Below, in pieces: positions 37,329-51,956 of a DNA stretch of 64,000 bases. Below the pieces are notes generated by a model that made no database searches, was not told the DNA's origin, and was given only the letters and a program-made list of their open reading frames with translations. The stretch spans positions 8,370,001 to 8,434,000 of the forward strand of contig NZ_CP030050.1 of assembly GCF_015291705.1 (NCBI RefSeq). Reading direction: 5' to 3'. Both the position numbers and the translations under genes were made by a program. The DNA is from Bradyrhizobium arachidis (GTDB taxonomy: Bacteria > Pseudomonadota > Alphaproteobacteria > Rhizobiales > Xanthobacteraceae). Position 1 is the first letter of the stretch; each line of letters begins with the position of its first letter.

Positions 37329-38390
37329 CTATTCCGCGGCTACTGCCGGAGAATGCAGGAATCGGACGACGTCCTCTGGTACGAGTTGAAGCCGCAACGC
37401 TGCCCGGAGGGCCTCGAGGCCGAAGATGTGCAGATCTTCGTTGAAGTCGCCCACCCGAGGCGACAGCGCAATCGCTTCAATGCCGACCTCTTCCGCGCGC
37501 TGCGTAAGAATAGCCTGTACGGCATCTCCGGCAGCATCGTCATCGCGGGCGATATAGAGCCGACGCAGGCCAGACGGCAGCAACATGGCTGCGAGATGAT
37601 TGGCCGAAAGCGCGGCGGCCATGGGCAGGGCTGGCAGTGCGTAACGCAGTGACAGCATGGTCTCGATTCCCTCGCCGGCAGCGAGCACATCATCGACCAC
37701 GCCGAAGCGAACGGCGTTGCCGAGAAGGTCACCCATGGCGCGTCGCGGCGTGTCGATCGGAGCCTTGCCGAGCCGCACGCGATCAAAACCGTCTGGATCG
37801 AGCCAAGTGCGGTGTACGCCTGTGATCCGTCCATCGAGGTCGGTGACACAGGCTATCATCGCCGGCCAGGTTTCGATCGACGAATGCTCGTCTGGTCGAT
37901 AGTAGCAACGAGGATGGAAGCGCAAGCTGCCACCATGGTTGATGCAAGTAATTCTGCGGCGCTGCAAGTACGCCTCAGCTAGTGTCGCTTCAATCGGGCT
38001 GGATATCGCAAAGAGCCGACGAGCGGCTTCCTGCGATCCGGCCGGCACGACTGGACGAATGGTTTTCGGAGCGAATTGCGGCTCTGAACGAGGCAGCTTT
38101 AGAAACCGCCTCGCCTCCTCGGCGACCTCGCGAAAGTCTCGCAAGGCCAGACTTTCGCGGATGATGTCGAGGAGATCACCATGTTCGCCCGTTGCGGCGT
38201 CGGTCCATTTCCCAGCGGGTCCCTTCAGCGATTCGTGCAGCCGCACGAACAACGAGCGGCCCGGCGTGTTGTGAACGTCGCCGACCAGCCAGTACCGCCC
38301 CGCCCGCCTGCCATTGGAGAGATAGTGTCGACACACCGCCTCAGCCTCGCGCGAGAGGCGGCGTGCCAGTTCGGAAGCATCGCGGGACAT
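37329..38390 (-). CDS. Toprim domain protein (primase-like)
   Basis: A 353-residue protein. The N-terminal half (SRDASELARRLSREAEAVCR and WTDAATGEHGDLLDIIRESL) resembles the zinc/CHC2-like region of the DUF7146 family, and the C-terminal Toprim domain shows AGEGIETMLSLRYA with the catalytic glutamate and YIARDDDAAGDAV with the DxD. Such proteins act in primer synthesis or DNA processing after conjugative entry. Its ATG at 38390 overlaps the stop of the strawberry-notch gene, so they are translated together. Confidence 0.9.
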   Translation of the reverse strand: MSRDASELARRLSREAEAVCRHYLSNGRRAGRYWLVGDVHNTPGRSLFVRLHESLKGPAGKWTDAATGEHGDLLDIIRESLALRDFREVAEEARRFLKLPRSEPQFAPKTIRPVVPAGSQEAARRLFAISSPIEATLAEAYLQRRRITCINHGGSLRFHPRCYYRPDEHSSIETWPAMIACVTDLDGRITGVHRTWLDPDGFDRVRLGKAPIDTPRRAMGDLLGNAVRFGVVDDVLAAGEGIETMLSLRYALPALPMAAALSANHLAAMLLPSGLRRLYIARDDDAAGDAVQAILTQRAEEVGIEAIALSPRVGDFNEDLHIFGLEALRAALRLQLVPEDVVRFLHSPAVAAE

Positions 38391-41300
38391 CAGGCGGCCT
38401 CCCGCTCGCCGATGCGCGCCACCGGATAGGTGTCGAGCACTCTCGACAGGATCTCGACACCGCTCGTGTCCGTGGGCACGAACATACGGAGCTTCCAGGA
38501 GATGATCTCCCCAAAGAGACCGTAAGCCCGCAGGCGATCGCGCATCGTGTCGTTGAAGCCCGACAGCTCGATGCGGTAAGCCCCCATCACCCGAACGCGG
38601 CGAAGCTGGAGTTCTTCCGCGAGTTCGAGGACGGTCCGTCCCTCCATCAGCGCGGCAAAGGCAGCGCCTGGTGTCAGCGCAGGCGCGTCCGTCGCAAGGA
38701 CGCTTGCGACCCACGCGGCCGAAACCTTGCGTCCAATGATGCGTTCGCCCGCATCGGTCTGAAGGCGATAGACCCGGGTCGATTCGTTCGGCAGCCGCTT
38801 CCAGATTGGTAGCAGCAAGCCCGCCACAACGTTGATCGTAGATTCCGTGAACTCAGACACCTCAGCAAGCTCCGCCAGCCAGGCCGCAGCGAAGCGTTCA
38901 CGATCCGCTTCGAGCCAGTAGCTCTCCGCCATCATGTCCAAGGGGACCGTGTGCTGATCCATCGGCCGGATCAGGCGGACGCGCCGCTCGATCTCGCCGT
39001 CGTCGAGCATGACGCTCGCCGTCGGGACCTGCACGGCGGCTCGTCCCGAGCGCTCATTGATTAGCAGGACAGCCTGACGATCGGAAACATGAGCAAGAGC
39101 ATCATCCAGACCCACAGGATGGTTGCGCTGGCGCTGCGTGATCGTGAGCAGCCGGGTCTCGGCGCCGGTGCCCGGATAGGCGTAGATCGTCCGCCGGTCA
39201 GTGACGACAAAGCTTTCGGCACGGAGCGTTTCCAGCCCGACGTCGTAGGTACCCGACGCGACCGCGCCCTCGATCCGAGCGGTCAAGAGCTGCTCAAAGG
39301 CGGTGAACAGCACATTCTGGAGGTCGATGGTGAGCGCCAACAACCTGTTCAGGAACGTCGTGATCGGCGGCAGCTCGTCCCTGAGCCCATTCGCATCCAT
39401 GAGCTTCAGACCGGTCGCATCCTCGAACCTCCAAAGCGAGCAGCCGTCGACCTTCCCTCGCGCGAGCAAGATGTAGAGTTGGCGCAATGCATCGCGCCCA
39501 TGCTGGCTTTCGAGGTTATCCTCGGGCCGGAATAGGCCCTGCCCGCCCGTCTGGCGCTGGCCGCGCGTAATGGCACCCAACGTGTCTAGCCGGCGGGCAA
39601 TGGTGCTGAGAAAGCGCTTTTCGGCCTTCACATCGGTCGCGATGGGACGAAACAACGGTGGCTGCGCTTGATTGGTCCGGTTTGTGCGGCCGAGGCCCTG
39701 GATCGCGGCATCGGCCTTCCAGCCGGGCTCGAGCAGGTAATGGACTCGCAGGCGGTAATTCCGGGCCGACAGTTCGGCATGGTAGCTCCTCCCTGTGCCG
39801 CCGGCGTCGGAGAACACGAGGATGCGCTTGACGTCGTCCATGAAAGCCGATGTCTCAGCGAGGTTTGCCGAACCGGCTCGATTTTCGACCACCAGCCGGT
39901 CGCCCTTGCGAACGATGCGGCGCGAGCGGCCCGTCACCTCGGCAACCAGTTCGGTGCCGAAGCGCTGGATGACTTGATCCAGTGCCCCAGGTACCGGCGG
40001 TAGTGATGCAAGCTTCTCGATGAGGCGCTCGCGTCGTGCGACGGCTTCCCGACTCTCGACCGGCTGGCCGTCGCGGTAGACAGGCCGGGAACAGAGGTTA
40101 CCTTCAGAGTCGGTAAAGGGCTCATAGAGCTGGACCGGAAAGGAGTGGGCGAGATAGTCGAGGACATACTCGCGCGGCGTGATGTCGACCTGGACGTCGC
40201 CCCACTCTTCAGTCGGGATCTGGGCGAGCCGGCGCTCCATCAGCGCTTCGCCTGTCGACACGATCTGGATGACCGCGGCGTGTCCAGCCTCAAGATCGTG
40301 CTCGATCGATCGGACCAGCGATGGAGTCTTCATCGAAGTCAGGAGGTGGCCGAAGAAGCGCTGCTTCGCGCTTTCGAAAGCGGAGCGTGCCGCAGACTTG
40401 GCCTGCCCGTTCAACGTTCCAGTTGCACCGGTGATGTTGGCGGCCCGCATCGCCGCATCGAGATTGTTATGGATGACGCTGAACGCACCGGCATAGGCAT
40501 CGTAGATGCGAACCTGCTCCGGCGTAAGCTGGTGCTCAACGAGGTCGTACGCGACACCCTCGTAGGACAATGAGCGAGCCGCATAGAGACCGAGCGCCTT
40601 GAGGTCCCGCGCAAGCACCTCCATCGCCGCGACGCCGCCCTCCTCGATGGCTTCGACGAACTCGGCACGCGTGGCAAACGAGAAGTCGGCGCCGCCCCAA
40701 AGGCCAAGGCGCTGGGCATAAGCGAGGTTGTGGACCGTGGTTGCGCCCGTCGCCGATACGTAGACCACACGAGCATTTGGAAAGGCGTGCTGGAGCCTCA
40801 GGCCGGCGCGCCCCTGCTGAGATGCAGCCTGGTCGGCGCGCTCGCCCTTGCCCCCGACCGCATTCTGCATGGCGTGGCTCTCGTCGAAGACGATCACTCC
40901 GTCGAAGTCCGAACCCAACCATTCGACGATCTGCCTGACACGCGAAAGCTTCTCACCGCGCTCGTCGGTCCGTAGCGTGGCGTAGGTGGTAAAAAGGACG
41001 CCTTCCGCGAGCCGGATCGGCGTGCCTTGGCGGAAGCGCGAGAGTGGCGTAACAAGCAGCCGCTCCATGCCGAGCGCGGACCAATCGCGCTGCGCATCCT
41101 CGATCAGCTTGTCGGACTTGCTGATCCAGACCGCACGGCGGCGGCCCTTGAACCAGTTGTCGAGCAAAATCCCGGCGACCTGCCGCCCCTTGCCCGCCCC
41201 GGTGCCATCGCCCAAAAACCAGCCGCGGCGAAAGCGGACGGCATTTTCGGTGTCGTCGCGCGCGGCGGCCACAAGGTCAAAGGTCGTGTCGACCGTCCAA

Positions 41301-42712
41301 GCGCCTGCCAGGAATTCGGAATGCGCCTCGCCGGCATAGATGATGCTCTCCAGCTGAGCATCCGACAGAACTCCGTCGTCCATGACATTGGCGGGCAGGT
41401 GCGGACGATAGGATGGCTTCGGTGGCGCAACGGACGCCATCGCGGCAGACTGCACGAGCTTGGTCGGATGTGCGCATGATCCGGGAATGCAGATCGACTG
41501 TAGTCCGTATTCCTCATAAAGCGCATCGGTCAGCCGGGCGCCTTCCGGCGGGGACCATTCGACCGTCTCGTAGATCAGTTCTGCGCCTACTGGCGCGGTG
41601 TCTCTCGAAGTGGACGATGGGCGTGGTGCGACGGCGCCGACCAATTGCGACATCGCTGGCCGCCCGATAGCAGCGATCTCCGATGGCGTGGTGACGGGCA
41701 GCCTTGGAGGCACATGCAGATTCACCCAGCCAAGCAAGGTAGCGACATCGGCCGCCATGCCTGGCGAGGCAGGAAAAGCCGTCGGATCGGCAGCGGGCAG
41801 CTTGTCGATCACAAGCAGCCTAGTATCCGTCTGAGTGCCGTGCTTGGCGTAAACGGTCCCGTCAATGGCGGCAGAAAACACCACGCGCCCGCGTTCCTGG
41901 AGGCGAACAAAGGCATCTCGCCATGTCGGGTTATCCGGCGCGAAGCTTGCACCAGCGATGGCGACGAGGCGCCCACCGTCGCAGAGACGCGCCAGCGCCG
42001 AAGCGATGTGGCGGAGAGCCGCATCCGCCATCCGTCGATCGACATTCGCTACCGCGGAGAACGGCGGGTTCATCAGGACGACGCTAGGTGTGACACTCGC
42101 ATCGAGGTGATCATCGATTTGCGCGGCATCGAACCGCGTGACCTTAACGCCCGCGAATAGCTGATCGAGCAGCTCCGCGCGGGCCTCGGCCAACTCGTTC
42201 AACACCAAGGCGCCGCCGGCGAGCTCTGCAAAGACTGCGAGCAGGCCTGTGCCCGCGGACGGCTCCAGAACGCGGTCGGCAGGCGTAATAGAGGCAGCGG
42301 TGCATGCCGCCAGTCCAAGCGAAATCGGCGTCGAGAATTGCTGAAACGCCTGACTGTCTTCGGAACGCCGCGTATGGGTCGGCAGACAGCTCGCGATTCT
42401 CGCGAGCATTGGCAGCATGGCAGCCGTCGAGCCAGCCTTGGCGCGCATGGCCGGACCGAACTTGCGAAGAAATAGAACTGTTGCCGCCTCGCAGACGTCA
42501 TAGGCGGTCTTCCAGTTCCAGGCGCCGTCCGCGTCCGAGGCGCCGAATGCCGCCTCCATGGCGCTACGCAGGACGGCGGCATCGATGCGACGGCCGCGTT
42601 CGAGATCAGTCAAGAGGTGTCGGGCCGCCCTGACGGCGGCGGAGGTGAGAGTAGCAGCGGCACGCATTGAGAGCGGCGCGGCGGCAGCGCCGCCCGCGAG
42701 AGATTCGGTCAT
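38390..42712 (-). CDS. Strawberry-notch-like helicase / DNA methylase fusion
   Basis: A giant protein of 1440 residues. The N-terminal third is an N6-adenine-methylase-like domain (SAM motif VLEPSAGTGLLAVF, catalytic-type NPPF in VVLMNPPFSAV). The rest is a superfamily 2 helicase of the strawberry-notch type, with Walker A GDGTGAGKGRQ, DExH-type DESHAMQN and the C-terminal helicase domain containing FSDAGGTGRSYHAELS and QGLGRTNRTNQAQPP. It is a hallmark of rhizobial ICEs and plasmids and is thought to modify or remodel incoming DNA against host defence; direct proof is lacking. The start at 42712 is one of several possible. Confidence 0.92.
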   Translation of the reverse strand: MTESLAGGAAAAPLSMRAAATLTSAAVRAARHLLTDLERGRRIDAAVLRSAMEAAFGASDADGAWNWKTAYDVCEAATVLFLRKFGPAMRAKAGSTAAMLPMLARIASCLPTHTRRSEDSQAFQQFSTPISLGLAACTAASITPADRVLEPSAGTGLLAVFAELAGGALVLNELAEARAELLDQLFAGVKVTRFDAAQIDDHLDASVTPSVVLMNPPFSAVANVDRRMADAALRHIASALARLCDGGRLVAIAGASFAPDNPTWRDAFVRLQERGRVVFSAAIDGTVYAKHGTQTDTRLLVIDKLPAADPTAFPASPGMAADVATLLGWVNLHVPPRLPVTTPSEIAAIGRPAMSQLVGAVAPRPSSTSRDTAPVGAELIYETVEWSPPEGARLTDALYEEYGLQSICIPGSCAHPTKLVQSAAMASVAPPKPSYRPHLPANVMDDGVLSDAQLESIIYAGEAHSEFLAGAWTVDTTFDLVAAARDDTENAVRFRRGWFLGDGTGAGKGRQVAGILLDNWFKGRRRAVWISKSDKLIEDAQRDWSALGMERLLVTPLSRFRQGTPIRLAEGVLFTTYATLRTDERGEKLSRVRQIVEWLGSDFDGVIVFDESHAMQNAVGGKGERADQAASQQGRAGLRLQHAFPNARVVYVSATGATTVHNLAYAQRLGLWGGADFSFATRAEFVEAIEEGGVAAMEVLARDLKALGLYAARSLSYEGVAYDLVEHQLTPEQVRIYDAYAGAFSVIHNNLDAAMRAANITGATGTLNGQAKSAARSAFESAKQRFFGHLLTSMKTPSLVRSIEHDLEAGHAAVIQIVSTGEALMERRLAQIPTEEWGDVQVDITPREYVLDYLAHSFPVQLYEPFTDSEGNLCSRPVYRDGQPVESREAVARRERLIEKLASLPPVPGALDQVIQRFGTELVAEVTGRSRRIVRKGDRLVVENRAGSANLAETSAFMDDVKRILVFSDAGGTGRSYHAELSARNYRLRVHYLLEPGWKADAAIQGLGRTNRTNQAQPPLFRPIATDVKAEKRFLSTIARRLDTLGAITRGQRQTGGQGLFRPEDNLESQHGRDALRQLYILLARGKVDGCSLWRFEDATGLKLMDANGLRDELPPITTFLNRLLALTIDLQNVLFTAFEQLLTARIEGAVASGTYDVGLETLRAESFVVTDRRTIYAYPGTGAETRLLTITQRQRNHPVGLDDALAHVSDRQAVLLINERSGRAAVQVPTASVMLDDGEIERRVRLIRPMDQHTVPLDMMAESYWLEADRERFAAAWLAELAEVSEFTESTINVVAGLLLPIWKRLPNESTRVYRLQTDAGERIIGRKVSAAWVASVLATDAPALTPGAAFAALMEGRTVLELAEELQLRRVRVMGAYRIELSGFNDTMRDRLRAYGLFGEIISWKLRMFVPTDTSGVEILSRVLDTYPVARIGEREAA

Positions 42713-42820
42713 GACTGGATTTCTCGAGAGAGCAGGAGCGGGGCGAACCATCAGGCGCTCTCCTTTGACCCGACGGCTCAAACCCCTCCCGGCCCTGCTC
42801 TCCCTCTCAGCCCTCGCCCA

Positions 42821-42892: not shown

Positions 42893-45010
42893 TCACTCAG
42901 CCGCGTCGAGCTGTTGCGGGTCATCATCGCCGGCGTTCTCCAGATCCTCATCGTCGGCGAGGAATTCCGGCAGCGGACCTGCTTCGCCCTCCTGCCCCAC
43001 CGGCGCTGCATCGGGATCAACGAGACGTAGCGGCTCCGGCAACCAGCCTGAGCCGTCCAGAAGGCGCTCGGCCTCCTTGGCCATGGCAGCCTTCTTCAGA
43101 TGGTCGATCAGTTGCGCCGACGGCTCGCCCTTGGCTTCCCGCACGGCCTCCAGAATGCGCGGCTTGGTGACCCGCCCGAGATAGTTGTCGACGGTCGGCC
43201 GCCAGCCAGCCTGCACCATGTTAAGCCCGACCGCGCGCGCCAGCACATCCGCTTGGTCGAGACGCGTGCGGACACCGTGAGCGGAGACACGGCCCTGATT
43301 GTAGCGGTTGGCCGGCTCATAGACGGCATTGACCGCAAATGATGCACAATGGGCGAACAGCGACGCCTGTGAACCACCATCGAGAGCCGTCAGCGCATCC
43401 CAGAGATCGTTCTCGCTCTTCGGCAACCGTGCCTTCCAGGCCTCATGCCGCGCCTCGACGGCCTTGGCGGAGACGCTTTCTCTCAGCCCCGGAGCTTGAG
43501 TTGGAAAGTTCGGCGTGCGAAGGCCGATCTCGAGACAGCTTCCGGATGACGCGAACCGGTAAAAAGCCGACAGCACGAAATTATGCAGCACCGCCTGGAA
43601 CGCGATCGCAGGATTTTCTGCCAACGCATCCCGCAATGCAAGCGTGCGATGCGCTGTCAGCTCGTTGATGAGCCGATCCGGCAGAGGCCTGGCCGCATCC
43701 TCATCATCTTCTTCAGCATCGGGAGCACTTCCCGCGACAGCGATCACCCTGCGCTGGACGGAAGCGCCCTCTTCTTGACCTTCGGTCGACAACGCACCGG
43801 CGTCCTGCCCGAAGTCACAATCAGTTGCCGGCACATCGTCCTCTGGCCGGACGTAACCTCGGTCCACGGAGAGGCGCCCCTCGGAATCGATGCTGATGAA
43901 GACGCCAGCGCGGGCGATCTCGATCGGATCGTAGAGCATCGGCCGGTTTTCGAATGCCGACAGTGCCGCCTCGATTTCGCCGAGACGCTGGTCGATTTCG
44001 TCGGGCAGCTCGTCTGGATCCTGATAATCGGTTTCCAGCTTGGCTTGCTCGGCGTTCAGGGCATCGATGGTGGCCTGCTCCTCAGGCGAGAGATCGACAG
44101 GTTTGCCCTCGATTTCTCGTAGCCCTTGAGTGTGACCGTAAGAGAACTCTACGGCGACCGAGATCCACTTCCAGCCTTCGGCCGCGATCGTCTCAGCTTC
44201 GGCTTTGAGCTTTTCGGTCACGAGGCGGTCGAGCAACACGACGTCCTGAAGCCAGCCGCCGTCGTCGTGCTCGAACAAATCCCGCAGAACTCCGCCGCCC
44301 GCGTGCTGATAGGCATCGAGGCCCACAAACTGCGCCCGGCGATCGGACCCGCGCACGGTGTTCTCAGTGAGCAGTCGGCGGATCTGGTATGGCTCGTCAT
44401 AACCGGAACGGCTGACGTTCTCCCAGACTTGCTCCTGGCGGGCGTGATCGGCCGTGACCGAGAACGCCATGAGCTGCTCGAGCGTCATGCCGTCTTCGGC
44501 ATAGACGTCATGCAATTTCGGCGAGATCGACGCCAGGCGCAGGCGCTGCTTCACGATCGCCGGGTTCACGAAATGGCGCGCGGCGATGTCTTCCTCGCTC
44601 ATGCCGAGGTCGCGGAGGGTCTGGAAAGCCCGAAACTGATCGAGCGGGTGCAGACCGACCCGCTCGTCGTTCTCCGCCACCGAATCGTCCGCGGCGATGC
44701 CCCCTTCACGGACGACGCACGGCACCGCCTGCGTCTTGGACATCCGCTTCTGTTTCACCAGGAGCTCGAGAGCCCGATAGCGCCTGCCGCCTGCCGGCAC
44801 CTCGAACATGCCGGTCTCGTGGCCATCTGCATCAACGACGGCCCGGACGCTCAGACTTTGCAGAAGCGTACGCTGCGCGATGCTCTCGGCTAGCTGCTCG
44901 ATCGAGACACCGGCCTTGACGCGGCGAACGTTCGACTGGCTGAGCACGAGCTTATTGAAGGGAATGTCCCGGGAAGGCGACAGCGTGATCTTTTGTACGG
45001 CTTTCGTCAT
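42893..45010 (-). CDS. ParB/RepB/Spo0J-family nuclease-domain protein
   Basis: A 705-residue ParB-like protein. The N-terminal ParB/Srx domain (IPFNKLVLSQSNVRRVKAG, IEQLAESIAQRTLLQSLSV, FEVPAGGRRYRALELL) is followed by the HTH domain (LHPLDQFRAFQTLRDLGMSE, EDIAARHFVNPAIVKQRLRL). The 400-residue C-terminal part is helical and acidic. This long form is typical of rhizobial ICEs and has no ParA partner here, so it may regulate transcription or bind DNA rather than partition it. The start at 45010 follows a GGAGAG Shine-Dalgarno. The leader is the hairpin at 45024-45064 that is shared with ardC. Confidence 0.92.
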   Translation of the reverse strand: MTKAVQKITLSPSRDIPFNKLVLSQSNVRRVKAGVSIEQLAESIAQRTLLQSLSVRAVVDADGHETGMFEVPAGGRRYRALELLVKQKRMSKTQAVPCVVREGGIAADDSVAENDERVGLHPLDQFRAFQTLRDLGMSEEDIAARHFVNPAIVKQRLRLASISPKLHDVYAEDGMTLEQLMAFSVTADHARQEQVWENVSRSGYDEPYQIRRLLTENTVRGSDRRAQFVGLDAYQHAGGGVLRDLFEHDDGGWLQDVVLLDRLVTEKLKAEAETIAAEGWKWISVAVEFSYGHTQGLREIEGKPVDLSPEEQATIDALNAEQAKLETDYQDPDELPDEIDQRLGEIEAALSAFENRPMLYDPIEIARAGVFISIDSEGRLSVDRGYVRPEDDVPATDCDFGQDAGALSTEGQEEGASVQRRVIAVAGSAPDAEEDDEDAARPLPDRLINELTAHRTLALRDALAENPAIAFQAVLHNFVLSAFYRFASSGSCLEIGLRTPNFPTQAPGLRESVSAKAVEARHEAWKARLPKSENDLWDALTALDGGSQASLFAHCASFAVNAVYEPANRYNQGRVSAHGVRTRLDQADVLARAVGLNMVQAGWRPTVDNYLGRVTKPRILEAVREAKGEPSAQLIDHLKKAAMAKEAERLLDGSGWLPEPLRLVDPDAAPVGQEGEAGPLPEFLADDEDLENAGDDDPQQLDAAE

Positions 45011-45023
45011 TTTGGCTCTCCAC

Positions 45024-45064
45024 GACGGGCGGCCGTGAGACTCTCTCTCGGCTTCCAACCCGTC
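45024..45064 (-). promoter_or_regulatory. Structured leader RNA upstream of parB (copy 1)
   Basis: On the minus strand an outer stem GACGGG/CCCGTC encloses an inner stem GCCGAGAGA with TCTCACGGC (one A-A mismatch). The element ends 13 bases before the parB ATG, directly followed by the Shine-Dalgarno GGAGAG. The matching copy before ardC is at 46090-46129. It may be the published radC RNA motif of alphaproteobacterial plasmid genes. Confidence 0.75.
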
Positions 45065-45113
45065 GCGAACAGCCTTCCCTCCTCTCACTCTCGCGCGGCC
45101 ACGAGGCGGAGCA

Positions 45114-46076
45114 TCACGCCGCCTCATGATCGGCCACAGCGGAATCCAGCGACGCGGGCTCAATGGACCCGGGTACGAAGCCGAGCAAATAGTCCGCAGC
45201 CTTGCTCGCCTGCGAGGCGGCCCGCACGATGGCCCTGACGTCTTCGCGCAGAACTTCAAGCCAGGAGCCGATATAGTCGGCATGGCGCACGGTCGGGACG
45301 ATCCCGAGCGAGGCGCAGCTGAATGCGGAGCTCAACTCGGCAACCAGTTCTTCGAAGGCATATTTCTTCGTACCGTAGGATCCGCTCTGGTCGCGGTTGA
45401 GACGCGAGGGATGCCCGGTCGCATGACCGAGCTCATGCAACGCCGTGCGGTGCCAATTGATGGGTTCGAAGTAGGCCTGCGGCGGTGGGACCTGAACATA
45501 GTCTTCGGCTGTTGCGTAGAATGCGCGATCTCCACCGATCCGAAACGGAATTCCGCTGGCCTTGATCAGGGCGTCGACCGTGGGTTCGATGAGGCCAGCC
45601 GGCGGTGGCGGCGCAGCGGTGGCAATGCCGTCGGGCAGATCTTCGCACTGATCGGAGTTGAAAACGGTAAATCGTTTGAGGAATGGAATCGCCTGCGCGT
45701 CTTCGCCAGTTTCAGCGGCGCGTCGTCTTTCGTCATTCGGCACGAAACGATCCGCGTAGACAACTGTGGTGCCGAGCTCTCCCTTTCGAACGTGGCCGCC
45801 AAGCGAGAGCGCCTGGCGGAAGGTGAGCCAACTTTGACCGGAAAATCCGCGCTCAATCACGGCGCCCCAGAGTATGAGGATGTTAACGCCGCTGTATTGC
45901 CGGTTGGCCAACGCGTTTTTCGGCATGGCCAGCGGCGCTTTCGCCGCGGACGTACCCCAGGGCTGAACCCAGGGGACGCGTCCGGCCTCAAGCTCGGCAA
46001 TGATCTTGTCGGTAATTTCGTTATAGAGGGTTGCCCGGTCCTGGCCGGCGCGCGCCCGAGCAGTAGTGTTTGACAT
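45114..46076 (-). CDS. ardC: ArdC-like antirestriction protein / zincin-like metallopeptidase
   Basis: A 320-residue protein. Residues 1-130 form the ArdC N-terminal ssDNA-binding domain (ATLYNEITDKIIAELEAG and NRQYSGVNILILW); the C-terminal metallopeptidase-like domain carries the zinc motif HELGH at 214-218 and GHPSRLNRD. ArdC proteins protect incoming single-stranded plasmid DNA from restriction. The start follows a GGAGA Shine-Dalgarno and a structured leader shared with parB. A 103-base space separates it from parB, which must have its own leader-controlled start. The gene is intact. Confidence 0.94.
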   Translation of the reverse strand: MSNTTARARAGQDRATLYNEITDKIIAELEAGRVPWVQPWGTSAAKAPLAMPKNALANRQYSGVNILILWGAVIERGFSGQSWLTFRQALSLGGHVRKGELGTTVVYADRFVPNDERRRAAETGEDAQAIPFLKRFTVFNSDQCEDLPDGIATAAPPPPAGLIEPTVDALIKASGIPFRIGGDRAFYATAEDYVQVPPPQAYFEPINWHRTALHELGHATGHPSRLNRDQSGSYGTKKYAFEELVAELSSAFSCASLGIVPTVRHADYIGSWLEVLREDVRAIVRAASQASKAADYLLGFVPGSIEPASLDSAVADHEAA

Positions 46077-46089
46077 CGCGGGTCTCCGC

Positions 46090-46129
46090 GACGGGCGCCG
46101 CGAGCCTCTCTCGCAACTTCTAACCCGTC
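46090..46129 (-). promoter_or_regulatory. Structured leader RNA upstream of ardC (copy 2)
   Basis: On the minus strand the outer stem GACGGG/CCCGTC is identical to the parB copy, while the inner stem is GCGAG pairing with CTCGC around AGAGG. The inner stem differs in sequence from the parB copy yet still pairs. It ends 13 bases before the ardC ATG, as in the parB leader. Confidence 0.75.
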
Positions 46130-46449
46130 ACGGAAAGAACCAGCCTGCACTCTTACTCTCAGCCCTTGCGCCATCTACCGAGGGCCTCATTCGCGATCAG
46201 GCGTGCGCCCAAGGGCGCATCGCCGCAACGGAAAATGGCACCCGGAGAGCGTGAGCATAGCGACCCGAAGGGGCACGCGGTCCGAGTGCAGCGACGAGAC
46301 CGGTTCAATAGCGGCACCCGGGAACGGGGCAGTGATAGCGATCGCCGCAGGCGAGCCCCTTTCCCGAGTGCCCCCGGCGAGGAGCACCAAAGCTCTAGCG
46401 CGAGGGATCGAAGCCGCAAGGCCGAGACGCTGCGCGGCTCGGTTCATAT
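46130..46449. other. GC-rich spacer upstream of ardC
   Basis: No gene is supported. The first 40 bases (minus strand GGGCTGAGAGTAAGAG) belong to the ardC leader and recur before the strawberry-notch gene (GGGCTGAGAGGGAGAG). The rest is spacer up to the inverted repeat of the IS element. Confidence 0.5.
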
Positions 46450-47843
46450 GTGGACGGCCCCCGACTTGCAAGGATTGGATCGGTCAGCATGTTCGGATCG
46501 CTTGCGCTCATATGTCCGGCCTGTTTTCGGATCTTACGACCCTTGGCCAAGATGGGCTTCGCGGACAGTGAGTTCCAAACACGAGAGCGGCATTTGCTGC
46601 CGGTAAACCGAGCGGAGTGTCTCACATGACCGGCTCGCGCCGAACGTACCACCTCTTCCTTTCCTGCAAGTTCCGGCCTCAGCGTCAGATCTAGCCGTCT
46701 GGCGCAAAGCTCTGCTTGTCGTTCAAAGTCTATGTCGGCGATGGGATCGGCACCGCGCTCGCAGCCCGGTACCGTTCGCCGGTAACCATCAGTTTCCAAG
46801 CTATCCGCGCCAGCTTGTTTGCTAACGCTATCGCCACCAGCTTCGGCGGCTTGCGCGTGATGATGTCTGTCAGCCAGGGCCAAGAGCGGCTCCCGCGTCG
46901 TCGCACATCCGCGATCACGGCTGTCGCGCCAGCTACCAAGACGGTTCGCAACATGCCGTCACCGGCGCGCGTGATGACACCGAGTCGATTCTTGCCGGCC
47001 GTGGAATGATTTTTTGGCGTCAGGCCAAGCCAAGCAGCAAAGTTTCTTGCCGATTTGAACCCGCGGGCATCCACGACCTTGATTGACAGCAGCGTCGCAC
47101 CGATTGGCCCAATTCCTGGAATGGTTGCCAGTCTTCGGCTCATCTCGTTGCTCCGATGGATTTGCGCGAGTTTCTTATCGAGAGTAACGACCTGATCATC
47201 GACGCGCGCCAGTTCTGCAGCCAACGCCTCTATCAACTCTATCGCCAGGTCCGGGACTGTCGCATCAGCCTTGATATCGATCAGCAATTGCGGAAGCCTC
47301 GAAAGCCCCTTGGGCGCGGTAAAGCCGAACTCAGCGGCGTAGCCGCGGATCGAATTGGCGAGCTGGGTGCGCCTACTGATGAACTGAGCCCGCACGCGCG
47401 TCAGCATCTGCGCGCCCTGCTGCTCAGGACTTTTGACCGGCACGAAGTTCTTGCGCAGTTTTGGTCGGCTTGCCGCCTCGCAAATCGCCTCCGCGTCCGC
47501 AGCGTCGGATTTCCCTCGCTGCACATACGGCTTGACATATTGTGGCGGGATCATCGCGACCTCATGTCCGAGCGATCGTAGCTCCCGCGCCCAATAATGC
47601 GACGCGCCACAAGCTTCCATCGCGACAAACGCTGGCGGCAAACGACGGAAGAATTCCAGAACCTGGCCGCGCCTCAACTTGCGCCGCAAGACTGGTTGCT
47701 CCATCCCGTCAACGCCGTGTAGCTGAAATACGCTTTTTGACGTGTCCAAACCGATTCGAACAATTGCCACGGACGGCTCCTTCGTTTTGAGGTCATCGAC
47801 GACCCCATCCTGCCACGCACACCGGCGGAAGGGGGCCGTCCAC
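46450..47843 (-). mobile_element. IS1111-type IS110-family element 4
   Basis: Perfect 13-base inverted repeats, GTGGACGGCCCCC at 46450-46462 and GGGGGCCGTCCAC at 47831-47843, bound one transposase gene with a 270-base 3' noncoding tail. The tail shares conserved blocks with element 5 at 56202-57562, including AACAGGCCGGACAT and GCAAGCGATC, as expected of the encoded guide RNA. Confidence 0.88.
46730..47770 (-). CDS. IS110/IS1111-family transposase 4
   Basis: A 346-residue DEDD recombinase probably starting at a GTG (47770): VAIVRIGLDTSKSVFQLHG has the first Asp, AFVAMEACG the Glu, RGKSDAADAEAICEA the two Asp, then RRLATIPGIGPIGATLLSI and the serine region KNHSTAGKNRLGVITRAG. It is closely related to transposase 5 (shared GxDTSKSVFQLHGVD). 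The gene is complete. Confidence 0.93.
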   Translation of the reverse strand: MAIVRIGLDTSKSVFQLHGVDGMEQPVLRRKLRRGQVLEFFRRLPPAFVAMEACGASHYWARELRSLGHEVAMIPPQYVKPYVQRGKSDAADAEAICEAASRPKLRKNFVPVKSPEQQGAQMLTRVRAQFISRRTQLANSIRGYAAEFGFTAPKGLSRLPQLLIDIKADATVPDLAIELIEALAAELARVDDQVVTLDKKLAQIHRSNEMSRRLATIPGIGPIGATLLSIKVVDARGFKSARNFAAWLGLTPKNHSTAGKNRLGVITRAGDGMLRTVLVAGATAVIADVRRRGSRSWPWLTDIITRKPPKLVAIALANKLARIAWKLMVTGERYRAASAVPIPSPT

Positions 47844-48098
47844 CCCAACACGAGAGCCCGGTGCGGCGATAGCCGCACGCGCTAATCGGATAAGGAGCAA
47901 CCACCTGAGCTCGGACGTCTGAAGTATTGGAAAAATGGTTTCTTCAGTTCGTTCTTGCCCACCCTAGCACCTCGCCAAGCTGAAAATTCAGCCTTCGAAA
48001 AACCACGAGATCCCACGATCCCGAATCCCAGTCGTGTGTTAGCGATGGGGAACGCCTGCGGCACAAAACGATTCGTCTCAGCGTGGGAGAACCTTTCA

Positions 48099-48402: not shown

Positions 48403-48591
48403 TCAGCGGCCTAGCCGTTTCTCCACGCGCTTGCGCGCGTTGCCGACCTTCTTGACAGCCTTTTTCACCGCCGGTGCCGACCTTCCGGTCTTCTTCACCT
48501 CGTACTGCACCTCGTAGTCCTGCCCGCCGGCCACCCGTGCCCGGTCCTGCTTTCGTCCGCGCGCCGTTTTGCTCTTCTTCGCTACCGCCAT
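48403..48591 (-). CDS. DUF3606-family small basic protein
   Basis: A 62-residue lysine-rich protein with DYEVQYEVKKTGRSAPAVKK and AVKKVGNARKRVEKRLGR, the DUF3606 pattern, a short fold suited to nucleic-acid or protein contacts. Function unknown. It is transcribed divergently from the ligase gene starting at 48696, and frequently accompanies NHEJ genes in rhizobia. Confidence 0.8.
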   Translation of the reverse strand: MAVAKKSKTARGRKQDRARVAGGQDYEVQYEVKKTGRSAPAVKKAVKKVGNARKRVEKRLGR

Positions 48592-48695
48592 GGGTGCCTC
48601 CTGTTGTGACATCGAAGCAACGCGACAAGGATTCGCAGGTTCCGGAACGATTCGAACTGTGCCAATTTGAATCGGCTGTAGCGTGGAGTTCTTCA

Positions 48696-49616
48696 GTGGC
48701 GTTTCAGCGCAAAAAGCCGGCAGCCATCGGCGTCAAGGCGCCTCTCCCCGGCTTCATCGAACCGGGCCTGGCCACCTCCATCGAAAAGGTGCCGTCCGGA
48801 GAGCGCTGGATTCACGAGATCAAGTTCGACGGCTACCGAGTTCAGGTCCATCTGGCCAACGAGACGGCGAAGATCTTCACCCGGCGCGGCCACGATTGGA
48901 CGCATCGCTTCAAGAAGGTCGCTCATGACGCCTGGCGGATCAAGGCGAACTCGGCAGTAGTGGATGGCGAGATCGTGGTACCGGCCGCCGACGGCACGAC
49001 CGACTTCTCGGTGCTGCAGAACGAGCTCAAGGGCAAGTCGAAGAGCATCGTGCTCGTCGCGTTCGATCTGCTCTATCTGAACGGCCGAGATATCCGGAAG
49101 CTGCCGCTCTTTCAGCGCAAAGCCGAACTCAAGAAGATTCTAAGCGGCACCGACATCCAGTTCAGCGAAAGCTTCGAGATGGACGGCCGCGAGATGTTCG
49201 CGCACGCCTGCAAGCTCGGCCTCGAAGGCGTCGTCTCGAAGGTCCGGGGCAGCGCCTATCCAACGGGACGCACGAATGATTGGGTCAAAAAGACCTGCGT
49301 ACAGCGTGAGACGTTGACCATTGCCGGCTTCGCACTCGATGGGACGAAGTGGGACGGCATCTACGTCGGCCGGCGCAAGGGCGACGATCTGGTCTACGCC
49401 GGCAAAGTCGACCATGGCTTCGACAAGGCCTCCGCCGCCGATCTGCAGAAACGGCTTAAACCCCTCGTCCGAAAGACCCAGCCTTATACGAAGCGCATCG
49501 GTCACAAGGGCATCTGGGTCGAACCCAAGCTTCTGGCCGAGATCGAGTATCGGGCGAAGTCGGCCGAGGGAAAGGTTCGCCACCCGTTTTTCAGGGGGCT
49601 TCGGGAGGATCTGTAA
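48696..49616 (+). CDS. ATP-dependent DNA ligase, LigD ligase-domain type (1)
   Basis: A 306-residue ligase. Motif I is EIKFDGYRVQ with the nucleotidyl lysine; other motifs are VVDGEIV (III), LVAFDLLYLNG (IIIa), LEGVVSKVRGSAYPTG (IV) and WVKKTC (V), followed by an OB-fold domain ending HPFFRGLRED. It is the ligase domain of LigD without the polymerase and phosphoesterase domains. A GTG at 48696 (VAFQRKKPAAIG) is the likely start, as upstream sequence is not conserved. With Ku at 54218 and a second ligase at 51009 it forms a nonhomologous end-joining set. Confidence 0.92.
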   Translation: MAFQRKKPAAIGVKAPLPGFIEPGLATSIEKVPSGERWIHEIKFDGYRVQVHLANETAKIFTRRGHDWTHRFKKVAHDAWRIKANSAVVDGEIVVPAADGTTDFSVLQNELKGKSKSIVLVAFDLLYLNGRDIRKLPLFQRKAELKKILSGTDIQFSESFEMDGREMFAHACKLGLEGVVSKVRGSAYPTGRTNDWVKKTCVQRETLTIAGFALDGTKWDGIYVGRRKGDDLVYAGKVDHGFDKASAADLQKRLKPLVRKTQPYTKRIGHKGIWVEPKLLAEIEYRAKSAEGKVRHPFFRGLREDL

Positions 49617-51008: not shown

Positions 51009-51956
51009 ATGAGCCGGACGTCGACCCTGCCCAAGCGCCTGCAGCCGACGCTCGCTACGCTCACCGACGCGCCGTTCGACGATCCCGGCTGGGTTTTCGA
51101 GGACAAATTCGATGGTTTCCGGATGATCGCGGAAATCCGGCGAGGCAAGGTTGCGCTCTACAGCCGTAACGGGAAGATCATCAGCCACTCCTATATCGAG
51201 GTCGCGAAGGCGCTAGAGGGCGTGAAGGCGGACGCCGTGATCGATGGCGAGCTCGTCGCGATCGGCAAAGACGGCGTCTCCCATTTCCAACTGCTCCAGA
51301 ACGCCCTGCGCCATGAAGCCAAGCTCTTGTACTGCGCGTTCGACCTCATGTTCGCGGACGGTGAGGATCTGCGCGCGCTGCCGCTTCTCGAGCGCAAGAA
51401 GCGGCTAAAGAGCATCCTGCCGCGCCACAAGCTGATTGCGTTCAGCAAGCACCGCAAAGGCAAGGGATCCGAGTTCTTCGCAGAAGCTGAGCGAAGGCAT
51501 CTCGAAGGCATCATGGCCAAGCGCGCCGACAGCCCCTACGCGTCCGGACGCCGGACCGCCGATTGGCTGAAGGTCAAGACCGCGCAGCGGCAGGAGGTCG
51601 TGATCGCCGGGTTCACGGCACCGAGGCGGACCCGGCCCTTCTTCGGCGCCCTAGTTCTGGCCGTACGAGAGGACGACGCATGGCGATACATCGGCCATGT
51701 CGGCACCGGTTTCAGCCACCAGGTTCTCGAACAGCTTCACGGCAAGCTCCTGAAGCTCAAGACGGCCAAGTCGCCCTTTCCCGCCAAGGTGAAGGATGAG
51801 CAGGTCACGACCTGGGTGCGTCCTGCGTTGGTCGCAGAAGTGAAGTTCGCGGAGTGGACCAGCAAGGGAGAGCTGCGCCAACCGGTCTATCTCGGGCTGC
51901 GGTCGGACAAAAACGCGAAGGACGTCGTACGCGAAAAGAAGTTGTCGCGAAAATAG
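51009..51956 (+). CDS. ATP-dependent DNA ligase, LigD ligase-domain type (2)
   Basis: A 315-residue ligase with motif I FEDKFDGFRMIAEI, VIDGELVAIG (III), YCAFDLMFADGEDLR (IIIa), LEGIMAKRADSPYASGRRT (IV) and WLKVKT (V), then an OB fold. It differs from ligase 1 throughout, so it is an old paralogue rather than a recent duplication. Rhizobia often have several LigD-like ligases used with different Ku proteins. It is convergent with the RNase HII gene, leaving 27 bases between the stops. Confidence 0.92.
   Translation: MSRTSTLPKRLQPTLATLTDAPFDDPGWVFEDKFDGFRMIAEIRRGKVALYSRNGKIISHSYIEVAKALEGVKADAVIDGELVAIGKDGVSHFQLLQNALRHEAKLLYCAFDLMFADGEDLRALPLLERKKRLKSILPRHKLIAFSKHRKGKGSEFFAEAERRHLEGIMAKRADSPYASGRRTADWLKVKTAQRQEVVIAGFTAPRRTRPFFGALVLAVREDDAWRYIGHVGTGFSHQVLEQLHGKLLKLKTAKSPFPAKVKDEQVTTWVRPALVAEVKFAEWTSKGELRQPVYLGLRSDKNAKDVVREKKLSRK

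Follow-up and report, generated by a model that had tools for sequence, protein, structure and literature searches.

Three genes of a putative mobile element, ardC, parB and a strawberry-notch-like helicase gene, follow one another in this order on the minus strand of the stretch of Bradyrhizobium arachidis DNA analyzed here (64,000 nucleotides; hereafter the window), and very similar hairpins stand directly ahead of the start codons of the first two. The question raised by this locus is whether these hairpins represent one regulatory RNA shared by several genes and, if so, which RNA it is and what it might do. The original prediction took them for one cis-acting RNA, possibly the published radC motif, controlling genes expressed when an integrative conjugative element (ICE) enters a cell. 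We addressed this question by analyzing the leaders of the window together with those of related loci, genomes and plasmids.

Gene module and leader architecture

The features of the module are listed in table 1. The element also bears conjugation (T4SS) genes, encoding TrbI, CagX, VirB8, a TraG-type ATPase and a coupling protein, as well as a replication initiator, and a leader related to those of ardC and parB precedes the strawberry-notch gene; both points had been anticipated. Two ATP-dependent DNA ligase genes (window 48474-49616 and 51009-51956) lie near each other on the plus strand beside the module, and an IS110-type transposase gene (46730-47878) is located between the module and these two genes.

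Table 1. Coordinates of the genes and leader features of the module (positions in the window)
Feature	Position	Strand	Description
ardC	45114..46076	-	320 aa, ATG at 46076; ArdC N-terminal domain PF08401 (9e-42) and zincin-like MPTase-PolyVal domain PF18818 (2.1e-49)
ardC leader, R1 model match	46074-46166	-	91.1 bits; leader belongs to R1 seed
ardC leader hairpin	46090..46129	-	outer stem GACGGG/CCCGTC, asymmetric internal loop, inner stem, apical AGAGG loop
Extended ardC stem (CCGT ... GCGG)	46086..46133	-	takes in GG of Shine-Dalgarno; from A1 consensus and predicted accessibility
ardC Shine-Dalgarno GGAG	46084..46087	-	from sequence; paired in predicted fold
ardC-leader AGAGNNAGAG box (AGAGTAAGAG)	46150..46159	-	single-stranded in consensus
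parB-like gene	42893..45010	-	705 aa, ATG at 45010; PF02195 (5.5e-05, below curated cut-off) and TIGR00180 (1e-11, below that model's cut-off)
parB leader, R1 model match	45008-45098	-	84.6 bits; leader belongs to R1 seed
parB leader hairpin	45024..45064	-	architecture as in ardC leader; one A-A mismatch in inner stem
Extended parB stem (TCGC ... GTGG)	45020..45068	-	takes in GG of Shine-Dalgarno
parB Shine-Dalgarno GGAG	45018..45021	-	from sequence
parB-leader AGAGNNAGAG box (AGAGTGAGAG)	45082..45091	-	22 nt past ardC stop codon
Strawberry-notch-like helicase gene	38390..42712	-	1440 aa, ATG at 42712; PF13872 (2.3e-123) and PF13871 (9.5e-96)
Strawberry-notch leader	42710..42809	-	AGAGNGAGAG box, long irregular hairpin, GAGAGCG loop; R3 101.4 bits (in R3 seed)
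Strawberry-notch-leader AGAGNNAGAG box (AGAGGGAGAG)	42798..42807	-

The elements originally read from the two leaders were all recovered on the minus strand: the identical outer stem GACGGG/CCCGTC, the distance of 13 nt between the end of each hairpin and its ATG, the GGAGA Shine-Dalgarno sequence starting 2 nt past the stem, the common upstream part GAGAGTRAGAG, and the occurrence of GGGCTGAGAGGGAGAG ahead of the strawberry-notch gene. The stem is longer than first described, with four further pairs that cover the GG of GGAG. Each leader of ardC and parB forms a unit of ~90 nt, in which a purine box, AGAGNGAGAG, is followed 16-24 nt further on by the hairpin, with the outer stem consensus YCGY-GACGGG / CCCGUC-GYGG and the apical loop AGAGG. 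The folding z-scores were -4.23 for the 92-nt parB leader and -3.15 for the 91-nt ardC leader, with 0/200 dinucleotide shuffles folding as well for either; for the bare hairpins, 2/200 shuffles (parB, 41 nt) and 0/200 (ardC, 40 nt) did so. The U-run that follows the hairpin of an intrinsic terminator or attenuator was not found behind the two window hairpins, where GYGGAGA follows and no T-run occurs. The sequence AGAGNNAGAG occurs three times in the window, once ahead of each of ardC, parB and strawberry notch; this number is unremarkable (shuffle mean 1.77; as many in 25/100 shuffles), and it is the placement of the boxes alone that is notable. A pairing between the AGAG of the box and CUCU inside the ardC/parB hairpin was judged by eye on the alignment A1 (described below) and abandoned, given a constant box but a variable 3' arm in the inner stem.

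The leader of the strawberry-notch gene contains a GACGGGUUUGAG-like segment related to the ardC and parB leaders, but its hairpin is longer, and the AGAG of its box (42798-42807), which is unpaired ahead of ardC and parB, is paired with a CUCU that lies immediately 5' of the start region. In an alignment of 34 such leaders, 95.5% of the cells paired and 7/21 pairs showed double changes; the covariation score was 0.291, compared with 0.184 (sd 0.010) under a null that was not tree-aware, and the pairs closing the box were invariant except for one G-U. By pattern, this leader was detected in 44/80 related loci (best 80 of 580). At least seven of the stretches fetched for the other 36 loci end before a strawberry-notch gene could lie, and a search of 22 of those 36 with the R3 model gave five matches at E<0.001, two cut at the stretch end. 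Since the R1 model of the ardC and parB leaders gave the strawberry-notch leader of the window only 13.7 bits, we call it related and do not place it in the same family. The window copy is the sole R3 match in its genome.

Conservation, covariation and strand of the hairpins

Relatives were obtained by an ArdC search of genome contigs (best 80 of 580 confirmed, all with at least 76% identity). The hairpin was observed ahead of ardC in 80/80 of these best 80 of 580, with both outer arms intact in 76 and one mismatch in 4, a figure that is not representative of all ArdC proteins since these loci are near relatives. A ParB-like N-terminus was recognized in 75 of the same best 80 of 580 loci, and all 75 possessed the hairpin: 74 were found by pattern (66 intact, 7 with one mismatch and 1 with two), and the one of L025, in which the ParB start is altered, was recovered by the R1 model at 84.1 bits. 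For the remaining five loci, no parB was recognized in the fetched stretch. The dimensions of the leaders were equally constant. The hairpin measured 38-41 nt in 153/154 leaders, the exception, L063 (33), being a pattern miscall; its end lay 13 nt from the start codon in 76/80 ardC leaders and 13-16 nt in 74/74 parB leaders, with L063 again as the 20-nt outlier; and the box, in a relaxed form, started 26-34 nt ahead of the stem in 153/154. In addition, the nearest leader was of the same gene type for 113/113 thinned ardC and parB leaders; thus, the two subtypes are old and were not homogenized within elements.

Two further observations were made among these loci. The ardC and parB leaders of L013 and L018 (Sphingorhabdus and Rhizorhabdus MAG contigs) are letter-identical to those of L014, L016 and L017 (Afipia and Bradyrhizobiaceae), which reflects either recent transfer or a binning error. 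In 20/80 loci (L037, L044, L049, L061, L077 and others), a pattern search revealed three consecutive GC-rich hairpins upstream of the ardC leader, namely GGGGAAAGCCTTCCCC, CGGCCGAG..CTCGGCCG and GCGGGGAGACCCCGC, with the 3' end 34-42 nt ahead of the ardC hairpin. The element is probably non-coding, because its middle part, by eye, varies in length; the pattern is absent from the window.

Covariation was analyzed in alignment A1, which comprised 65 leaders (33 before ardC-type and 32 before parB-type genes, the two of the window included) picked from the 98 that remained after thinning, with a counted structure of 11 pairs in the outer helix and 7 in the inner helix. Pairing was maintained in 98.6% of the cells, and 8/18 pairs showed double changes. 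The covariation score was 0.278, above all slid versions and compared with 0.204 (sd 0.005) in shuffles, none of which (0/500) was as high; the count of further pair types was reached in 18/500 shuffles. Because such shuffles ignore relatedness, we wrote a tree-aware null, home-made in the manner of R-scape and not R-scape itself. Under this null, only the pair 56-68 passed in A1, with a helix-only E of 0.0014 and 0.29 against all pairs. We also used sets of 165 and 224 leaders, some rows of which had been found with the R1 model but were realigned by sequence with MAFFT. The top three column pairs of the entire alignment were inner-stem pairs in the 165-leader set, and the top three were again inner-stem pairs in the 224-leader set; in each, 3/16 pairs reached E<0.05 in the helix-only test and 1/16 against all column pairs. 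The check that had been proposed for the leaders, covariation in a larger alignment, therefore came out in favor of a conserved structure for the inner stem under our home-made null (65, 165 and 224 leaders). The compensatory changes first claimed are likewise present as double changes in the wider alignments but not in the window pair alone, whose inner stems, compared by column in A1, are distinguished by two C-G/U-G wobbles and a single position with C-G in ardC and an A-A mismatch in parB.

No outer-stem pair passed the tree-aware test in any of the three sets (A1, 165 and 224 leaders). The outer stem and its extension are near-invariant, so that covariation neither supports nor refutes them. 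Among the extension pairs of the A1 consensus (35-85, 36-84, 37-83 and 38-81), double changes were observed only at 37-83 (2/65) and at none of the other three, and the outer stem showed rare ones, GGCGGG/CCCGCC in L088, GACGAG/CTCGTC in L139 and GACGGA/TCCGTC in L115.

The strand on which the structure acts can be approached through the wobble pairs. In A1, 215 cells held G-U and 5 held A-C, and the corresponding numbers in the 224-leader set were 632 and 49, although the G-U cells are concentrated in few columns and are thus not independent events. Moreover, the sense strand folded better than its complement in 154/154 leaders with RNA parameters and in 145/154 with DNA parameters. The large excess of G-U over A-C and the better folding of the sense strand argue for a sense RNA and not for a DNA palindrome, and we are nearly certain that the leaders are conserved RNA structures of the sense strand. 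The part of the original prediction that saw a conserved cis-acting RNA common to parB and ardC, and not conserved DNA, is thus sustained by covariation and by strand.

Two DNA-level explanations have to be weighed against this RNA reading. ParB proteins bind palindromes, and the outer half-sites GACGGG/CCCGTC scarcely vary, as would suit a double-stranded DNA operator, for example an inverted repeat bound by a ParB-like protein or another repressor; we nevertheless consider such an operator very unlikely, in that covariation in the inner stem runs through A-U, G-C and C-G, with G-U tolerated far above A-C, that a length varying over 38-41 nt (153/154) would rotate the half-sites on the helix, and that the hairpin is tied to the Shine-Dalgarno sequence and the start codon. 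The other explanation draws on the Frpo/ssi single-stranded DNA promoters of conjugative plasmids, which serve entry-region genes such as those for antirestriction and fold their hairpin upstream of the transcription start, on the strand that is transferred and serves as template. A signal of this kind, in which the transferred strand would fold and drive early transcription on entry, has in its favor the T4SS genes on the element and a gene set of the entry/anti-restriction type (PMC5512222, in excerpt), which is where the likeness to Frpo/ssi lies. The best-folding strand is, however, the sense strand beside the start codon and not the entering one, as in Frpo/ssi; the template strand has mismatches and folds less well (154/154 with RNA and 145/154 with DNA parameters), and the 13 nt between hairpin and ATG leave no room downstream for a promoter and a leader, which makes such a promoter highly improbable. 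The asymmetry between G-U and A-C, the strand comparison and the length variation together disfavor both DNA-level explanations.

Known RNA families, distribution and gene partners

No Rfam 15 family (0/4227) reached its gathering cut-off in the window, none matched up to E 10 in 7 of the 80 relative loci, and the ardC leader alone gave no match; no counterpart in Rfam 15 was thus found for the RNA family of the ardC and parB leaders. Weak matches at the strawberry-notch leader, mostly to miRNA families, were far below the cut-offs and were taken as chance, and a P4 sRNA match was located inside the ardC gene and below the cut-off. The families of a 2017 survey of 224 motifs reportedly entered Rfam. 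A full-text search of open-licence PMC papers (titles and abstract beginnings) yielded no paper apparently describing this leader.

The radC motif (RF01754), a cis-regulatory RNA of Proteobacteria like the leaders, lies before DNA-binding and antirestriction genes, a gene context that the leaders share, and two weak R1 matches (24.8 and 25.3 bits) were found ahead of RadC JAB genes. The identification was nonetheless rejected, and we give it virtually no chance. A threshold as lax as E 10 gave no RF01754 match in the leaders, with a gathering score of 40 bits left unreached; no match at gathering occurred in the window, and the best in its genome, 23.2 bits, lay at another place; none at E 0.001 was found in 101 genomes of the order, where no true radC match turned up anywhere to act as a positive control. 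The architecture is also unrelated: the RF01754 model has 149 positions and other stems, and its consensus as shown (45 positions are not) contains neither the GACGGG/CCCGUC hairpin nor the AGAG box. The radC RNA motif is named in PMC2864571 (in excerpt), where the STAXI motif is described as a pseudoknot that occurs two or three times over, frequently with UUCG tetraloops, and often located close to genes for antirestriction, single-strand-binding, topoisomerase and integrase proteins. The leaders resemble STAXI, as that excerpt portrays it, in their closeness to antirestriction-type genes but differ in being a single hairpin per gene in place of repeated pseudoknots (PMC2864571).

At E 0.01, the R1 model matched 27/385 genomes of a class sample, 69/297 of an order sample and 34/398 of a phylum sample, all 34 of the last within the same class or nearer. 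The genome of the window contained four strong R1 matches, which form two ardC-parB pairs at 7.056 and 8.415 Mb, together with a further seven weak R1 matches (E 0.07 to 8) and one R3 match; the second leader pair (7056209-7057353) lies 1.36 Mb from that of the window. Genome G473 of the same order gave the most in these genome searches, with 13 R1 matches spread over two or more contigs. Among plasmids, 85 of 72,556 records matched one leader by blastn, from 22 genera by first name, and these 85 were typed as 23 conjugative, 61 non-mobilizable and 1 mobilizable. A phage collection gave no match at E 0.01 with one leader as query. Three IMG/VR stretches fitted a loose pattern; R1 gave only 13.8 bits in one of them (L146), elsewhere in the stretch, and nothing to E 0.5 in the other two (L147 and L148).

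We then recorded the next gene for 164 distinct leaders, which came mostly from the genome samples, with the two of the window and those of L034, L054 and L079 added, and part of which had been chosen for low scores. The gene was ParB-like in 60, ArdC in 50, DUF932-like in 14, MHDRDY-type in 3 and RadC in 2, and AlpA, a 150-aa type and strawberry notch occurred once each; the DUF932, RadC, AlpA, MHDRDY and 150-aa references were themselves drawn from these R1 matches, and the DUF932 match was marginally below the Pfam cut-off. A further 17 had no reference match, nine of them being one family of ~182-185 aa, and 15 had no frame of 25 codons, 12 of those near a stretch end. Leaders above 55 bits preceded six kinds of gene, namely ArdC, ParB, DUF932-like, the 185-aa family, AlpA and the 150-aa type, and the leaders of RadC and of the MHDRDY type (31-34 bits) were weak and without a clean AGAG box. 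On plasmid pCHQ1 of Sphingobium indicum, R1 or R3 matches were found before an ArdC-like gene, parB, strawberry notch and one other gene. The leaders thus represent a widespread RNA family tied to a defined gene set on alphaproteobacterial plasmids and ICE-like elements, and could serve as an annotation marker for such modules and their uncharacterized genes.

The family of ~182-185 aa was observed behind R1 leaders of 61-74 bits in L194, L195, L196, L198, L199, L202, L207, L208 and L218, with the signature M...F..IG.ILA..VLP.L..AQKLPLRISC.G, and its leader suggests that it belongs with the ardC/parB set. In L133, L136 and L137, a protein of 120-128 aa starting with MHDRDYSADIA or MDDRDYSADIA is encoded just upstream of parB behind a weak R1-type leader without AGAG box; one copy was scanned and had no Pfam match. 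In L158, the frame behind a parB-type leader (442-533) matches strawberry notch instead of ParB, perhaps because the module was rearranged.

Enclosure of the Shine-Dalgarno sequence and possible regulation

Accessibility was predicted for the 154 leaders, which reduced to 139 distinct stretches with ~40 nt of coding sequence included, 135 of them having GGAG within 12 nt of the hairpin. In these 135, the two G of the GG in GGAG had mean unpaired probabilities of 0.016 and 0.027 (97-98% paired), compared with 0.19 and 0.26 when the 5' part was shuffled, a control that keeps base composition but not dinucleotides; both positions were below 0.2 in 128/135. By prediction, then, the structure covers the Shine-Dalgarno sequence, and as in leaders that sequester this site, a conserved sense-strand structure with covariation, here in the inner stem, is present. 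The best explanation for one hairpin enclosing the Shine-Dalgarno sequence ahead of six or more unrelated kinds of gene is a regulator of translation common to them, and we regard control of translation through the Shine-Dalgarno sequence, by a shared operator, as probable on the basis of the predicted folds.

Under this translational model, ardC, parB and strawberry notch would each begin with a structured mRNA leader acting in cis as a translational operator, with the ribosome-binding site closed by default. A putative common trans factor, most simply an RNA-binding protein or a small RNA, would recognize the box and the loop, and this factor or some event would move the leader between closed and open states, so that a single signal could set the output of establishment and anti-restriction genes post-transcriptionally. 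We infer translational control, its direction and timing, the trans factor and the tie to element entry in this model, and the expression of the genes upon ICE entry, as first proposed, likewise comes from their supposed roles. In its fullest form, the model would be an RNA-level regulon in which one putative factor, element- or host-borne, reads the AGAG box and the AGAGG loop and sets when anti-restriction, partition and helicase genes are translated, shut when the element is resident and open on arrival; we advance this only tentatively, as a possibility on the less likely side. The pairing of AGAG ahead of strawberry notch, and not ahead of ardC and parB, is left unexplained by a simple operator model. 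ArdC-N proteins have been proposed as protectors of incoming single-stranded DNA (PMC5512222, in excerpt). If true, the regulon would amount to post-transcriptional zygotic induction spread over the Alphaproteobacteria.

The leaders might instead be constitutive, the hairpin and a purine-rich standby site stabilizing the mRNA or fixing the initiation rate of each cistron in a polycistronic message. The very stable stem, the purine box at a steady distance from it (26-34 nt, 153/154) and unpaired in the consensus, and the parB box just 22 nt past the ardC stop codon, which leaves scant room for a private promoter, all fit this explanation; however, the near-invariant letters of the outer stem and the AGAGG loop exceed the needs of a mere stabilizer, and the Shine-Dalgarno sequence itself is predicted to be enclosed, and we consider a constitutive role rather unlikely. 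For the preferred reading, translational control by a shared operator, the leader family makes the control of establishment genes testable, given short leaders and a precisely predicted stem; and because a single family precedes six or more kinds of gene, one could look for a regulator common to them. Translational operators over the Shine-Dalgarno sequence are represented by the MS2 coat-protein operator and the ribosomal-protein leaders, in which one protein reads a hairpin. The leaders described here resemble them in a hairpin predicted to enclose the ribosome-binding site but differ in that this hairpin is common to several unrelated genes and is accompanied by an extra single-stranded purine box.
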